From positions 1-25,553 of the IMG/VR virus record IMGVR_UViG_3300006119_001263: a stretch of 25,553 nt of DNA, one strand, 5' to 3'. A program made the position numbers and the translations under genes. The notes under the pieces are model-generated. The model saw nothing but the letters and a program-made list of their open reading frames with translations, did not search any database and was not told the DNA's origin. Source of the DNA: a virus. Positions within the stretch are counted from its first letter, which is position 1. Every line of letters begins with the position of its first letter. Positions 12,264-21,895 of this stretch are shown here, one piece after another.

Positions 12264-12291
12264 TTGAGTTTAATAGGAATGTCTTTATAAT
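12264..12291 (+). promoter_or_regulatory. Candidate sigma70-like promoter, leaderless spacing
   Basis: TTGAGT at 12264-12269, 16 bases, then TATAAT at 12286-12291. The ATG of the next gene begins at 12298, about where transcription would start, so the message would have almost no leader. It lies in the only gap after the glycan cassette and would start a separate unit. Confidence 0.5.
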
Positions 12292-12297
12292 CGGGAT

Positions 12298-12885
12298 ATG
12301 ATTATTAAAGACATTCCTGTATATGACGGTTTATTAATTCATAAGAGATTTGCTTACAATTACTTTCGTAAGAAAACATTACCAATTGGTAACATTGTAG
12401 CTTTTAGAGCTCCTATGAATGTACAAGCTGATGGTATGATTGATAGTGAAGATATTTTGCAAAATGACTTTATCTATAGTGATGATGCAATTAACTTTTG
12501 CTGGGAAATACCTAACTTAGACCCATTCGGTGCAGTTGCATATCAGAGACTTTTTAATACTCAAATTGCTAATATTTTAAATACTATTATTAAAAAACCT
12601 ATTGAAGTAGATGGTGACGATCTTTTAGTACATACAGAGTTTGAAGGTAGTGATGGATCAATTCAAAAGGTAGGTAAGTGCAGTGTAAGTATTACTATTT
12701 CAAAGAATAATGTTGCATTAGGACATACTGGTATTAATATTAATGCCGGGCGTAAGGCTCCTAACTTTGCATATAGTACTGGACTTACTGATGAGCAAGC
12801 AGATCAGTTTATGAAAACCGTTATTGATATGTTTTACGCGTTAAATGACGACATCTTTATTGCAACGACAAAAGTAATAGCATGA
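12298..12885 (+). CDS. DUF366-like conserved protein
   Basis: A 195-residue protein that I match by eye to DUF366 (archaeal PH1223-type). The elements are an N-terminal 'Y.G..I....Y' stretch, then NIVAFRAPMNVQADGMIDSE (32-51) like the FRG..V..E.MVD.ED block. AYQRLFNTQIANIL follows, then a GDDLLV segment (central VDGDDLLVHTEF), and the end has GKCSVSITISK and GHTGININAG like K-L-S-V-S-I-A-T...H-x-G-I-N. Archaeal members have a fold related to lipoate/biotin ligases, but no function is established. Homologues occur in T4-like marine phages as unknown genes. First gene of its own unit, ATGA overlap to the next gene. Confidence 0.55.
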   Translation: MIIKDIPVYDGLLIHKRFAYNYFRKKTLPIGNIVAFRAPMNVQADGMIDSEDILQNDFIYSDDAINFCWEIPNLDPFGAVAYQRLFNTQIANILNTIIKKPIEVDGDDLLVHTEFEGSDGSIQKVGKCSVSITISKNNVALGHTGININAGRKAPNFAYSTGLTDEQADQFMKTVIDMFYALNDDIFIATTKVIA

Positions 12886-13064: not shown

Positions 13065-13423
13065 CCATATTTGATTACATAGGTTCAATCATTAACACCA
13101 AGAAGAAGATAGAGTTAAACTGTGATGATGAGTCACAGTTTAGTATCTTCATGGTTAATAGATGGTTATCTTTTTATTCAAATGAAGTATCAAACTATGT
13201 AAATGAAACTTCTAACCGGTATGCTAACTTATTCTCTACCAAGCAAGAACAGTATGATTTTCTTTACCACGTCTTACCTAAGCTAAAGTTTAAAAAGATT
13301 AACTATTTAAAGAAAGTGAAGAAGGAAGATAAGGAAGAAAAAGAAAAACCTTACATACCTGAGTTTATGAGTAGAGCTGAGTATGAAAGAAACCTTGAAC
13401 TTCTAAGCGTTATTGGTAAATAA
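13061..13423 (+). CDS. 62: Clamp-loader small subunit, gp62-like
   Basis: A 120-residue protein. MTIFDYIGSIINTKKKIEL at the N-terminus, FSIFMVNRWLSFY (residues 27-39) and EQYDFLYHVLPKLKFKKINY are the conserved opening of the gp62 clamp-loader subunits of T4-like marine phages (FD..x..I..TKK....N.FMVNR.LSF, then x.Q.DFL...+.K.KRF.+). With gp44 it would load the gp45 sliding clamp onto primed DNA; those partners are not in the window. It is shorter than T4 gp62 (187 residues), which is usual for marine relatives. The lysine-rich VKKEDKEEKEK segment leads to a helical tail. Confidence 0.7.
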   Translation: MTIFDYIGSIINTKKKIELNCDDESQFSIFMVNRWLSFYSNEVSNYVNETSNRYANLFSTKQEQYDFLYHVLPKLKFKKINYLKKVKKEDKEEKEKPYIPEFMSRAEYERNLELLSVIGK

Positions 13424-13427
13424 TTGT

Positions 13428-13913
13428 ATGGCACAAGTATCTGTTGACGTATTAGAAACGAGAAAGAGTTTAATTGACTTAGATTCTTACGGTAAAGGTA
13501 ATTTCGGTATGGGTGAAGACTTCACCTTATCTTTTATTTTTGATGACATTGTACTAGTAGAATTCATCGATGAAGTTAGTGATAACTCAGGCGATGCAGT
13601 AGTACGTAACGGAATTTTCGTACCAACAAACGCTTTAATTAAAGCTTGGAGAAAGGCTAAAGTAATTTTAGCAGGACCAAGTGTAAAGTATTGCAAGCCA
13701 GGCGACATAGTAATCTTTCCAAATGATAAAGGTGCTTCAGTATCTAACATTGAAGTGGAAGGTTATGGTAAGCTTAAAAAAGGAGTATTTTTAAACGAAC
13801 AAAGATTATTCGGAATTTGTAAGCAAGTATCTACGGAATCTAAAGCAGAAACTTTTATTAATGAAAACGACATTGCAGGGACTAAGAACAGTACTAAGAG
13901 AAAACGTCTGTGA
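13428..13913 (+). CDS. GroES-fold co-chaperonin, gp31-like
   Basis: Start taken at ATG 13428, four bases after the previous stop; a TTG five codons upstream is also in frame. The 161-residue protein has a GroES-type core: DDIVLVEFIDE (first strand), GDAVVRNGIFVPTNALI (the mobile loop equivalent and 'GI.vP' strand), KAKVILAGPSVKYCKPGDIV (the 'G.V...G......GD.V' block), and RLFGICK as the closing strand. T4 gp31 plays this role with host GroEL in folding the major capsid protein gp23. The lysine/arginine-rich tail (STKRKRL) is outside the fold. The gene overlaps the next by 53 bases. Confidence 0.6.
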   Translation: MAQVSVDVLETRKSLIDLDSYGKGNFGMGEDFTLSFIFDDIVLVEFIDEVSDNSGDAVVRNGIFVPTNALIKAWRKAKVILAGPSVKYCKPGDIVIFPNDKGASVSNIEVEGYGKLKKGVFLNEQRLFGICKQVSTESKAETFINENDIAGTKNSTKRKRL

Positions 13914-18593: not shown

Positions 18594-19565
18594 ATGATTT
18601 TTAACGAACAGATTTCCCGCAAACCAAATCACTATCCATGGACAGAAGATTTTATTGAATCCATGCATAATGGATTCTGGACTGACAAGGAGTTCAGTTT
18701 TAAATCAGATGTGCAGCAATTCAAAGTTAAGCTAACAGATCAAGAAAGAGAAATTATTATCCGTACTCTCTCTGCTATTGGTCAAATAGAAGTTGCTGTG
18801 AAAACATTTTGGGCAAAATTAGGAGAAAATTTACCCCATCCTTCGTTGCAAGATTTGGGCTACGTTATGGCTAACACAGAAGTTATTCATAACAATGCTT
18901 ACGAAAGATTGCTTACAGTTTTAGGCCTTGAAGAAGTATTTGAAGAGAATTTAAAGCTTGAATGGATACAAGGCAGAGTAAAGTATCTTAAAAAGTACAC
19001 ACATCGTTTTTACAAAGAACATAAAAAGCAATACCTATATGCTATTATTCTCTTCACTTTATTTGTAGAAAACGTTTCATTAATGAGCCAGTTTTATATT
19101 ATTAACTGGTTTGCACGTAATAAAAACGTACTTAAAGACACTGACCAACAAGTTAAGTATACTCGCAACGAAGAGAACATACATGCTTTAGTTGGTATAA
19201 AAATTATCAATACCATTAGAGAAGAATATCCAGAACTTTTTGATGACGAGCTTACAGAAAGAATACTCTCTGAAGCCAAAGAAGCATACGAAAGTGAAGC
19301 TAAAATTATTGATTGGATGGTTAACGGTATCAAGGAAGATGGTTTATCAGCAGCTCACTTAAAAGAAGTAATAAAAGACCGTATAAATGAATCTCTCAAA
19401 AGTATTAACTTACCTACCGTATTTGAAACAGATGAAAAGTTACTTAAAGACACTGCATGGTTTAATGAAGAGTTGTTAGGCAATAATATGACCGACTTTT
19501 TTCATTCCCGTCCCGTTGAATATTCAAAGAAATCTCAAAGTTTCTCGGAAGACGATCTGTTTTAA
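18594..19565 (+). CDS. nrdB: Class Ia-type ribonucleotide reductase beta subunit
   Basis: A 323-residue R2 subunit. The di-iron/tyrosyl site is readable: TEVIHNNAYE has the E-x-x-H and the Tyr four residues later, FVENVSLMSQF has the third Glu, and TRNEENIHALVG has the E-x-x-H of the second half. In place of the usual first Asp the sequence has IGQIEVAVKTFW, so a Glu is the likely ligand, as in other phage R2 proteins of this subgroup. The C-terminal tail (SFSEDDLF) would dock to NrdA. It makes the radical for deoxynucleotide synthesis. nrdA follows 26 bases later; the order nrdB-nrdA is inverted relative to E. coli. Confidence 0.95.
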   Translation: MIFNEQISRKPNHYPWTEDFIESMHNGFWTDKEFSFKSDVQQFKVKLTDQEREIIIRTLSAIGQIEVAVKTFWAKLGENLPHPSLQDLGYVMANTEVIHNNAYERLLTVLGLEEVFEENLKLEWIQGRVKYLKKYTHRFYKEHKKQYLYAIILFTLFVENVSLMSQFYIINWFARNKNVLKDTDQQVKYTRNEENIHALVGIKIINTIREEYPELFDDELTERILSEAKEAYESEAKIIDWMVNGIKEDGLSAAHLKEVIKDRINESLKSINLPTVFETDEKLLKDTAWFNEELLGNNMTDFFHSRPVEYSKKSQSFSEDDLF

Positions 19566-19591: not shown

Positions 19592-21244
19592 ATGTCAAAC
19601 AAAGATATCTATTGGCTAAATAATGACTCACGTAAATTTCTTGCAAGAGGTTACCTATTAGAAAACGAAACCGCTGAACAGCGTATTAGAGATATTGCTG
19701 AAAAAGCAGAATACTATCTCAACTTGCCTGGATTTGCAGATAAGTTTGAAGGTTATATGCATAAAGGTTTTTATTCTTTAGCATCTCCTATTTGGGCTAA
19801 CTTTGGCCGTAAGCGTGGTTTGCCAATATCTTGTTTCGGTTCTTATGTTGATGACGACATGGACGCTATTCTATACAAAATGGCAGAAGTGGGAGCAATG
19901 TCAAAATCAGGTGGTGGTACATCCGGTTACTTTGGTGCAATCAGACCGCGTGGTGCATTAATTGGTTCAGGTGGCGAATCTACCGGTGTACATCATCAGT
20001 TAACAGTATTTGAATCATTAACTGATTACATTTCACAAGGCAATGTACGTAGAGGTTCATTTGCTGCGTACCTACCAATTGACCATAAAGACATTGAAGA
20101 GTTTTTAAAGATTAGAAGTGAAGGCGATACTATTCAGAACCTTTCCATTGGCGTCTGCGTTACTGATAAGTGGTTCAAACAAATGGTTGACGGCGATAAA
20201 GAAAAACGTCGCATATGGGGATTAGTAATTAAGAAACGTTTTGAATCTGGTTACCCATATATCTTCTTTACAGATAATGCTAATAAACAAGCACCAAAAG
20301 TTTATAAAGATAAAGGTTTAAAAATACATCATAGCAATCTTTGTACAGAAATCATGTTATCTAATGGTGTTGATGAATCATTTGTATGTGATTTGTCTTC
20401 TCTAAACTTTGAAAAATGGGATGAATGGAAAGAAACTGATGCAGTAGAAACGTTAGTTTACTTCCTAGATTCAGTAATGACAGAATTCATCAATAAGACA
20501 GAAGGTATGAAATTCATGGAGCATCCAAGAAACTTTGCTATCAATCAGAGAGCTCTTGGTATTGGATCGTTAGGTTGGCATACATACCTGCAATCTAAAA
20601 TGATTGCTTTTGAATCAATGGAAGCTAAACTTTTAAATACACAAATTTGGAAGTTTGTACGTACTAAAGCAGATTTAGCATCTGAACAACTAGCTAAAGA
20701 GTACGGTGAGCCGCCATTACTTAAAGGTTATAACCGCCGTAACGTTACTACATTAGCAGTAGCACCTACAACATCTAGTTCATTTATATTGGGTCAAGCA
20801 TCACCTTCTATTGAACCTTTAAACTCTAATTACTTCACAAAAGATTTAGCTAAGGGTAAATTTACTTATAAGAACCCTTATCTTGAAAAATTATTAGAAA
20901 GTAAAAATAAGAACACAGATGCTGTTTGGAAGTCTATACTTGTAAAAGGTGGCTCAGTGCAGCATTTAGAGTTTTTATCTTCAGTAGAAAAAGACGTGTT
21001 TAAGACTTTTGGTGAGATAAGCCAGAAAGAAATAGTAATTCAGGCAGCAGCACGTCAAAAGTACATTGATCAAGGTCAATCATTAAACTTAATGATACCG
21101 CCAAATACTAAACCAAAGGATGTTAACGACTTGTTAATCTTTGCTTGGGAGAACGGTATCAAGAGTCTTTACTATCAACGTTCTGCTAACCCGGCACAAG
21201 AATTAGCACGTTCTATTTTAACATGCTATAGTTGTGAATCATAA
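19592..21244 (+). CDS. nrdA: Class I ribonucleotide reductase alpha subunit without ATP cone
   Basis: A 550-residue catalytic subunit. LPISCFGSYV has the first redox Cys and SFVCDLSSLNF its partner. HHSNLCTEIML carries the N-x-C-x-E active-site trio, where the central Cys takes the thiyl radical. LYYQRSANPAQE has the radical-chain tyrosines, and the C-terminal CYSCES supplies the swinging cysteines. Typical NrdA has about 760 residues; here the N-terminal ATP cone that senses dATP is missing, since the protein starts near the catalytic ten-stranded barrel. The enzyme should therefore escape dATP shut-off (inference from family knowledge). It reduces ribonucleoside diphosphates for phage DNA synthesis. 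Confidence 0.95.
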   Translation: MSNKDIYWLNNDSRKFLARGYLLENETAEQRIRDIAEKAEYYLNLPGFADKFEGYMHKGFYSLASPIWANFGRKRGLPISCFGSYVDDDMDAILYKMAEVGAMSKSGGGTSGYFGAIRPRGALIGSGGESTGVHHQLTVFESLTDYISQGNVRRGSFAAYLPIDHKDIEEFLKIRSEGDTIQNLSIGVCVTDKWFKQMVDGDKEKRRIWGLVIKKRFESGYPYIFFTDNANKQAPKVYKDKGLKIHHSNLCTEIMLSNGVDESFVCDLSSLNFEKWDEWKETDAVETLVYFLDSVMTEFINKTEGMKFMEHPRNFAINQRALGIGSLGWHTYLQSKMIAFESMEAKLLNTQIWKFVRTKADLASEQLAKEYGEPPLLKGYNRRNVTTLAVAPTTSSSFILGQASPSIEPLNSNYFTKDLAKGKFTYKNPYLEKLLESKNKNTDAVWKSILVKGGSVQHLEFLSSVEKDVFKTFGEISQKEIVIQAAARQKYIDQGQSLNLMIPPNTKPKDVNDLLIFAWENGIKSLYYQRSANPAQELARSILTCYSCES

Positions 21245-21267: not shown

Positions 21268-21447
21268 GTGGACGGTAGCTGTACTTGCAATAATATTACA
21301 TATAGAGAAATAATTCATTTAGTAGATAAACATGATGATATTAAGTCTATAGAAGACTTACAACAATATTGTCACTGTGCTGATAGATGTTCTCGTTGTT
21401 ATTCGGATATAAAAGAAATTATTGATTTATTTAGAACAGAGAAATAA
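21268..21447 (+). CDS. Bfd-like [2Fe-2S] ferredoxin-type small protein
   Basis: A 59-residue gene on GTG. Reading the frame gives MDGSCTCNNITYREIIHLVD, then a helical KHDDIKSIEDLQQY, then CHCADRCSRCYSDIKEII. The C-x-C at 5-7 followed by 'N.IT..EI' and the C-x-x-C at 41-44 followed by a helix match the bacterioferritin-associated ferredoxin (Fer2_BFD) pattern, in which four Cys hold a [2Fe-2S] cluster. Two more Cys (35 and 37) precede the CxxC. Known Bfd (64 residues in E. coli) reduces bacterioferritin to release iron; related domains also serve as electron donors. Between nrdA and hsp20 it may supply electrons or iron to NrdB (inference). Confidence 0.65.
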   Translation: MDGSCTCNNITYREIIHLVDKHDDIKSIEDLQQYCHCADRCSRCYSDIKEIIDLFRTEK

Positions 21448-21480
21448 ATAATTTTGCGGGCACTTAATCCGCAAAATTAT
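21448..21480 (+). promoter_or_regulatory. Hairpin covering the hsp20 start codon (candidate RNA thermometer)
   Basis: ATAATTTTGCGG at 21448-21459 is perfectly complementary to CCGCAAAATTAT at 21469-21480, with a nine-base loop GCACTTAAT. The last two paired bases are the A and T of the hsp20 ATG (21479-21481). The stem has four G-C pairs next to the loop and eight A-U pairs towards the start codon. No U tract follows it, so it is not a normal terminator. AATAAATA at 21443-21450 (7 of 8 to the T4 late box) overlaps its left foot. Confidence 0.6.
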
Positions 21481-21895
21481 GACTAAACTAACTACATATA
21501 AATACAATCCGATAAGCAACATTGAACGGCTTTTTCAAGAGCAATTCAATCTATTCCCGATCTTTCATGATCTGGAAGAAGTATATAGAACAGGAGACAC
21601 GGTCCGTTTTTCACAAGATGAAAAAGGGATGACTGTTGATATTGACCTACCAGGGGTCAGTAAAGAAAATACAGAAATGAATGTCGATACTAACACTAGA
21701 GACATTTATATTACTGCTAAGAAAATAGTAAGAGACCAACAAGGCCAAACAACAAAGACCTTCAATAGAAGCTTTGGCATTGGTAATGAGTTTGATCTTA
21801 CTAATGTGTCAGCAAAACAAGTGGACGGGGTACTGTCAGTGTTCGTACCCAGAATGAAAAAAGATACATATCTTAAGAAAGTAAGTATCGAATAA
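21479..21895 (+). CDS. hsp20: Hsp20/alpha-crystallin small heat shock protein
   Basis: A 138-residue protein. The N-terminal arm (ISNIERLFQEQFNLFPIFHD) is followed by the alpha-crystallin domain: VRFSQDEKGMTVDIDLPGVS with the usual DLPGV, then NTRDIYITAKKI, FNRSFGIGNEFDLTNVSAKQ and DGVLSVFVPRM (the 'GVL.v.vP' signature). The end, KKVSIE, is a weak form of the I-x-I oligomer anchor. Small Hsps hold unfolding proteins; hsp20 is a common core gene of marine T4-like phages and is thought to protect virion scaffolding or host machinery. No Shine-Dalgarno sequence lies before the ATG, and the start codon is within a hairpin. It converges on the gp5-like gene four bases further. Confidence 0.9.
   Translation: MTKLTTYKYNPISNIERLFQEQFNLFPIFHDLEEVYRTGDTVRFSQDEKGMTVDIDLPGVSKENTEMNVDTNTRDIYITAKKIVRDQQGQTTKTFNRSFGIGNEFDLTNVSAKQVDGVLSVFVPRMKKDTYLKKVSIE

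Follow-up and report, generated by a model that had tools for sequence, protein, structure and literature searches.

A probable gp55-type late promoter and a candidate 5'-terminal stem-loop at the hsp20 gene of an uncultured T4-like phage

What is a perfect hairpin doing across the start codon of a small heat-shock gene in a T4-like phage? The gene, hsp20, lies downstream of ribonucleotide reductase genes in the window, meaning the whole stretch of 25,553 nucleotides analyzed here (IMG/VR record IMGVR_UViG_3300006119_001263).

18594-19565: nrdB, which precedes nrdA
19592-21244, + strand: nrdA, ribonucleotide reductase large subunit (Pfam PF02867, 2.7e-93; phrog_84, 5e-147)
about 21268-21447, + strand: Bfd-like [2Fe-2S] ORF directly upstream of hsp20 (Pfam Fer2_BFD, E 9e-9; GTG start assumed)
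21448-21459 and 21469-21480, + strand: arms of the 12-bp hairpin, complementary at 12 of 12 positions and covering the AU of AUG in read-through RNA
21479-21895, + strand: hsp20, small heat-shock protein of 138 aa (Pfam PF00011, 2.8e-11; phrog_432)

All three upstream genes point the same way as hsp20. The original prediction had spoken of read-through from nrdA; the gene immediately before hsp20 is not nrdA but the Bfd-like ORF. This ORF is conserved beside nrdA in other contigs too, and its TAA stop (21445-21447) falls inside the late promoter box described below. The hsp20 ATG at 21479-21481 is supported by an N terminus, MTKLT or MTRLT, common to the nearer relatives, and by the late box that abuts the same ATG. 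The bfd-like gene separates nrdA from hsp20 in the window clade, in L025, and apparently in L286; hsp20 adjoins nrdA directly in L004, L207, L208, L280, and L285, and in other contigs a lipoprotein-like gene takes the place of hsp20 after nrdA-bfd. The window also carries a weak GroES-like match at 13413-13913 (phrog_3188, E 2.4e-4). Relatives among known phages were sought by tblastn with Hsp20 and gp5, and none were found.

The perfect 12-bp hairpin that had been described at 21448-21480 is real and far above chance. Its loop is 9 nt long, and the arm coordinates confirm that the last two bases of the right arm are the AT of the hsp20 ATG, as claimed. The hairpin RNA has a minimum free energy (MFE) of -14.5 kcal/mol (z -4.8), matched by none of 200 shuffles. 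Perfect inverted repeats with a stem of 12 bp or longer and a loop of 3 to 20 nt number just two in the window, whereas a first-order Markov model predicts about 0.017 in 25.5 kb. Two simple identities were ruled out: an intrinsic terminator, since no T-run follows the stem on its 3' side and a terminator scan did not list it, and a mobile hairpin repeated through the genome, since each genome yielded the module a single time, at hsp20. Further pattern matches to the module elsewhere in the genomes look like chance, and a DNA pattern scan for the hairpin, being biased to hairpins and returning mostly chance hits, was used only for loci with Hsp20 behind them. The other perfect inverted repeat of the window (12275-12287 and 12306-12318) is 13 bp long, reaches an MFE of -24.3 when extended, and flanks the start codon, at 12298, of an ORF of unknown function (195 aa); its loop contains GGGAT and ATG. 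L009 shares this repeat, which is absent in the 85%-identical L040 homologue and in the likely L267 homologue.

The left foot of the hairpin overlaps a second element.

21443-21450, + strand: late promoter box AATAAATA, -13 to -6 by T4 numbering, kept in relatives
21456, + strand: predicted late transcription start (+1), placed by T4 numbering (PMC2988020)

The T4 late box spans -13 to -6 (PMC2988020). AATAAATA fits the consensus nATAAATA, its A at -13 being a listed T4 variant, and a variant box, TATAATTA, occurs in the L207/L208/L280 clade. The window itself is a 25-kb fragment; a gp55-like sigma factor is encoded in all seven of its large relatives (E 2e-6 to 1e-10) and also in the Pelagibacter phage HTVC008M. 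T4-type Gp23 capsid protein was found in six of the seven, and in 5/6 of the large relatives used for the box-to-ATG count given below; the sliding clamp model PF09116 matched only HTVC008M and was uninformative. The late-type box predicted on the left foot of the hairpin is thus strongly supported by its conservation and by the gp55-like sigma genes of relatives. A Bacteroidota promoter had been entertained, as TAATTTTG also fits TAnnTTTG, and was dropped because distant relatives keep ATAAATA and not TTTG. Within the window ATAAATA is strongly under-represented, with 4 occurrences against 19.7 expected, which gives the impression of avoidance outside promoters.

Which part of the hairpin do relatives share? 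The leaders of more distant Hsp20 relatives, L004 and L005 (75% identical) and L025 (61%), read AATAAATAATTTTGTATG and contain no hairpin, and these phages manage without one in a similar gene context. A scan based on the C-terminal part of NrdA, which does not select for hairpins, yielded 11 distinct hsp20 leaders. A stem lies at the same site, between TTG and ATG, in seven of them (L272 of the window clade, L277, L280, L281, L283, L285, and L291) and is absent in four (L286, L287, L294, and L296). What these leaders share is a short stem, TGCGN/N'CGCA, which sits between promoter and ATG in two hsp20 lineages.

21455-21459, + strand: 5' arm TGCGG of the short stem; TGCGN/N'CGCA is present in 8/8 aligned leaders
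21460-21468, + strand: loop, 9 nt here, 4 nt in most relatives, 17 nt in L281
21469-21473, + strand: 3' arm CCGCA, which pairs with TGCGG

The 9-nt loop belongs to the window clade, and the 4-nt loops are GTAA, GCAA, ACAA, or AAAA. All hairpin leaders place the first G of the stem six bases past the box or box-like octamer, at the predicted +1. At the fifth position the pairing is C-G for L277/L280/L291 and L207/L208, U-A for L283/L285, and G-C for the window clade and L281 (C-G in five, G-C in two, and U-A in one of the eight aligned leaders). For these eight leaders the 12-bp stem has a covariation score of 0.131 against a shuffled mean of 0.033, reached by 1 of 500 shuffles, and the score falls to between 0 and 0.03 when the stem is slid. 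Pair counts, which leave out L281 as its long loop was misplaced in the alignment, give four cells changed on both sides of the 12-bp stem, three of which belong to pair five of the short stem. RNAalifold independently predicts only the five pairs of the short stem. The covariation appears modest, comprising one varying pair that may have changed independently two or three times within a set of related sequences. The compensatory changes that the original prediction asked for upstream of hsp20 were found mainly for the fifth pair of the short stem, and the full 12-bp stem proved not to be conserved. By this comparison, the part kept by selection is the small stem at the predicted +1 and not the half that covers the AUG, and among the sequences compared the perfect hairpin is peculiar to the window alone.

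The perfection of the hairpin itself depends on two bases.

21474-21475, + strand: AA, a private derived change completing the palindrome; TT in four near-identical contigs

These four IMG/VR contigs match the window at 99.2 to 99.7% identity over 6.9 to 11.5 kb and encode an identical Hsp20 (one ends after 20 residues). Their TT breaks two pairs, leaving a 2x2 internal mismatch and -11.0 kcal/mol, with the A and U of AUG still predicted to be paired. Other hairpin leaders with the same right arm read GCATTAy or GCATAC and then TATG, which marks TT as ancestral and the AA of the window as derived. Two adjacent substitutions that perfect a quasi-palindrome are the signature of template-switch correction. 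The AA substitutions raise pairing from 10/12 to 12/12, and this recent two-base change would be best explained by quasi-palindrome correction through a template switch; an assembly error is a possible alternative source. Five differences from all four contigs cluster in the 56 bp from 21420 to 21475, while the flanks are identical to L015 for about 650 bp upstream and 3.3 kb downstream, and outgroup bfd genes agree with the window base at 21420 and 21432. A small exchanged tract around 21420-21475 is possible.

On a broader scale, the presence and absence of the hairpin require three changes on the Hsp20 tree. By NrdA the window is closer to the L208 type, which bears the hairpin (91%, against 86% for L004), whereas by Hsp20 it is closer to L004 (75%, against about 39% for the L208 type). 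These differing affinities suggest a mosaic structure around the nrdA-hsp20 junction, and the two hairpin groups might share an origin through recombination.

How could such a leader work? We see an about even chance that the locus is a gp55-type late promoter of the phage hsp20 gene whose message begins with a 5'-terminal stem-loop. Late RNA from about G21456 would fold its first bases into GCGG...CCGC, followed by six unpaired bases and then the AUG, and the stem-loop would most likely shield the 5' end of the late message while holding the AUG open near that end. In the longer read-through RNA from nrdA-bfd, the same sequence would extend to a stem of 12 to 13 bp that shuts the AUG, so expression would favor the late, promoter-born messages. 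Folding predictions put the open fraction of the A and U of AUG at 0.01 to 0.07 at 37°C in read-through RNA for both alleles (window and L272), and that of the AUG at about 0.97 to 0.99 in a short construct starting at G21456; with 40 nt of coding sequence added, the prediction of AUG opening varies with temperature and context. The box with its conservation and spacing, the sigma genes of relatives, the short stem with its one covarying pair and its place relative to the box, and the private AA are observed; we infer the start site, the protection of the mRNA, the template switch, and any effect on translation.

The original prediction had proposed an RNA thermometer, in which warming melts the stem and frees the start codon. 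The idea is a natural one for hsp20, a classic thermometer-controlled gene whose AUG the hairpin covers, and a single short hairpin is enough in Synechocystis hsp17, while an Anabaena thermometer mainly blocks the start codon (PMC4166951). However, the perfect stem is private: it is broken in the four near-identical contigs, hairpin-less relatives are common, beginning with those at 75% and 61% identity, and no conserved or covarying stem over the Shine-Dalgarno region or AUG was found in the relatives' leaders. The stem is also too stable. The A and U of AUG are predicted to be open at only 0.07 and 0.21 at 55°C, mostly closed at 60 to 65°C, and at 0.32 and 0.49 at 70°C, so the stem would stay shut to about 60 to 70°C, well beyond the physiological range. 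In any case, late RNA transcribed from the conserved promoter would be without the A-U half of the left arm, and Rfam gave no ROSE or fourU family match. With AUG accessibility not systematically different among leaders either, a thermometer is highly improbable. The main rival is a switch of the T4 type, whose selected function would be to hide the AUG in early or middle read-through RNA and leave free the late RNA that starts inside the 5' arm. Predicted closure of the AU of AUG in read-through RNA in both alleles, set against open RNA from G21456, fits this reading, as do the codirectional nrdB-nrdA-bfd genes upstream and the overlap of the late box with the 5' arm, also seen in T4 e, I-TevI, and Aeh1 mobE. 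Patchy conservation is compatible with it as well, since the structure is missing in several relatives of T4 gene e itself (PMC3014915). Against it, relatives mostly leave several pairs of the lower stem open (columns 6-38, 9-35, and 12-32), and hairpin leaders do not systematically have a less accessible AUG in read-through RNA than hairpin-less ones, the hidden start being predicted for the window and L272 alleles and not shared systematically by related leaders. The promoter-dependent switch of the original prediction stays plausible, on modeling, in the window clade, and it corresponds to a known T4 mechanism (e, soc, 49, and I-TevI; PMC3014915). Translation of the Bfd-like ORF speaks against it: a ribosome reaching the stop at TAA 21445-21447 would move into the left arm and unfold it. 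We regard this switch as doubtful for the selected function and possibly a second effect in the window clade.

Symmetrical changes in both arms would fit a double-stranded DNA operator equally well, a palindrome at the start site that binds a phage protein controlling the late promoter, a parallel being the operator on the I-TevI late promoter of T4, which I-TevI itself binds (PMC2988022). Such an operator is improbable here, as half-site spacings of 4, 9, or 17 nt would hardly be tolerated by a fixed dimer and the element is found at no other gene. The structure could also be a functionless product of mutation, a small palindromic insertion at a recombination junction that template switching then perfected. 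Its private perfect form, the three presence/absence changes on the Hsp20 tree, and the five differences clustered in 56 bp around the hairpin agree with this, but the GC stem is intact in every hairpin leader, includes a covarying pair, and is retained across two hsp20 lineages that share only about 39% protein identity; a neutral origin is improbable too. The 5'-terminal stem-loop is favored because the kept part is the +1 stem, AUG accessibility fails to tell the two kinds of leader apart, and a terminating ribosome would enter the left arm.

If a stem-loop begins the late message in some lineages, what begins it in the others? The gap between box and ATG in hairpin-less hsp20 leaders is 7 to 8 nt in nearly all cases, for example AATAAATAATTTTGTATG, TATAAATATTTTTCTATG, and CATAAATACTTATGTTATG. 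A scan by the neighboring gp5-like baseplate gene covered 80 loci and supplied many additional hsp20 leaders, with a box that is nearly always nATAAATA, and once GTAAATA, 7 to 8 nt before the ATG. The spacing of the window is longer, 28 nt. Taken with T4 numbering, the 7- to 8-nt spacing implies that late messages of hairpin-less hsp20 genes would start 2 to 3 nt before the AUG, and we infer that in most relatives these messages are almost leaderless.

The layout is wider than hsp20. Of 89 boxes within 60 nt upstream of ORFs, 63 sit 5 to 9 nt from the ATG, and the pattern ATAAATAN{5,9}ATG occurs 226 times in six large relatives against 44 in the reversed control. HTVC008M likewise has an excess of boxes 5 to 9 nt from ATG (16 against 2 in the control), whereas T4, P-SSM2, and Syn9 show no clear excess of the same pattern (5/6, 7/9, and 5/3 against the reversed control) and the T4 excess lies instead at 10 to 35 nt from ATG (54 against 23). 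Boxes 5 to 9 nt before many ATGs were seen in L065-L144, G006-G010, G001, and HTVC008M. The pattern is not enriched in G011, a genome of the L207/L208/L280 clade (9 against 6). Several genes of this L208-type phage (L266, L267) instead carry TAAATA- or TAAGTA-like boxes, which may mean that its late box has drifted. Genes abutted by a box showed no significant avoidance of Shine-Dalgarno sequences (2/52 against 41/403). The wider reading, which we hold to be evenly balanced between right and wrong, is that uncultured T4-like phages and HTVC008M make many near-leaderless late messages through a gp55 box 5 to 9 nt before the ATG and that at hsp20 some lineages swapped the leaderless start for a covarying +1 stem-loop, the same promoter yielding either message. 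In the open-license PMC literature searched, no description was found of the 5- to 9-nt box-to-ATG layout or of a +1 stem-loop at hsp20.

The late promoter and the early/late switch are of already known kinds. Like the gp55-dependent late promoters of T4 (PMC2988020), the hsp20 promoter has an 8-bp nATAAATA box and an A/T-rich downstream segment, and relatives encode a gp55-like sigma factor; it differs in that many genes here have the box 5 to 9 nt from the ATG and not at the distances favored in T4. As in T4 e, soc, 49, and I-TevI and in Aeh1 mobE (PMC3014915, PMC2988022), the late box lies in or next to the 5' strand of a hairpin that shuts the start region in longer RNA begun further upstream, and several of that set, like hsp20, are in or beside nucleotide-metabolism genes. 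Unlike them, the gene here is hsp20, its stem is without a Shine-Dalgarno sequence, the longer stem is not conserved, and the conserved part is the stem from the predicted +1, which would be retained in late RNA. The predicted arrangement of an extreme 5' stem-loop followed by a single-stranded start region resembles the 5'-terminal stabilizing stem-loops of Escherichia coli ompA and papA (cited in PMC3997798), although the hsp20 leader is without a Shine-Dalgarno sequence and its stabilizing role is putative. Thermometers of small heat-shock genes (ROSE, fourU, and Synechocystis hsp17; PMC4166951) share with this locus a hairpin over the gene start, whereas the hairpin here is not conserved, is too stable, does not pair with a Shine-Dalgarno sequence, and would be mostly missing from late RNA.

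These results remove a tempting but unsupported phage RNA thermometer, and the hsp20 leaders offer a natural pair, leaderless and stem-loop, for gauging the effect of a +1 hairpin. A study of pelagimyophages reported that earlier methods failed to predict late promoters in those genomes (PMC7029224), and the box-to-ATG distance of 5 to 9 nt in HTVC008M may partly explain this. If the wider reading is true, late expression in a widespread uncultured T4-like group would use messages that start at the start codon or within 2 to 3 nt of it, unlike those of T4.
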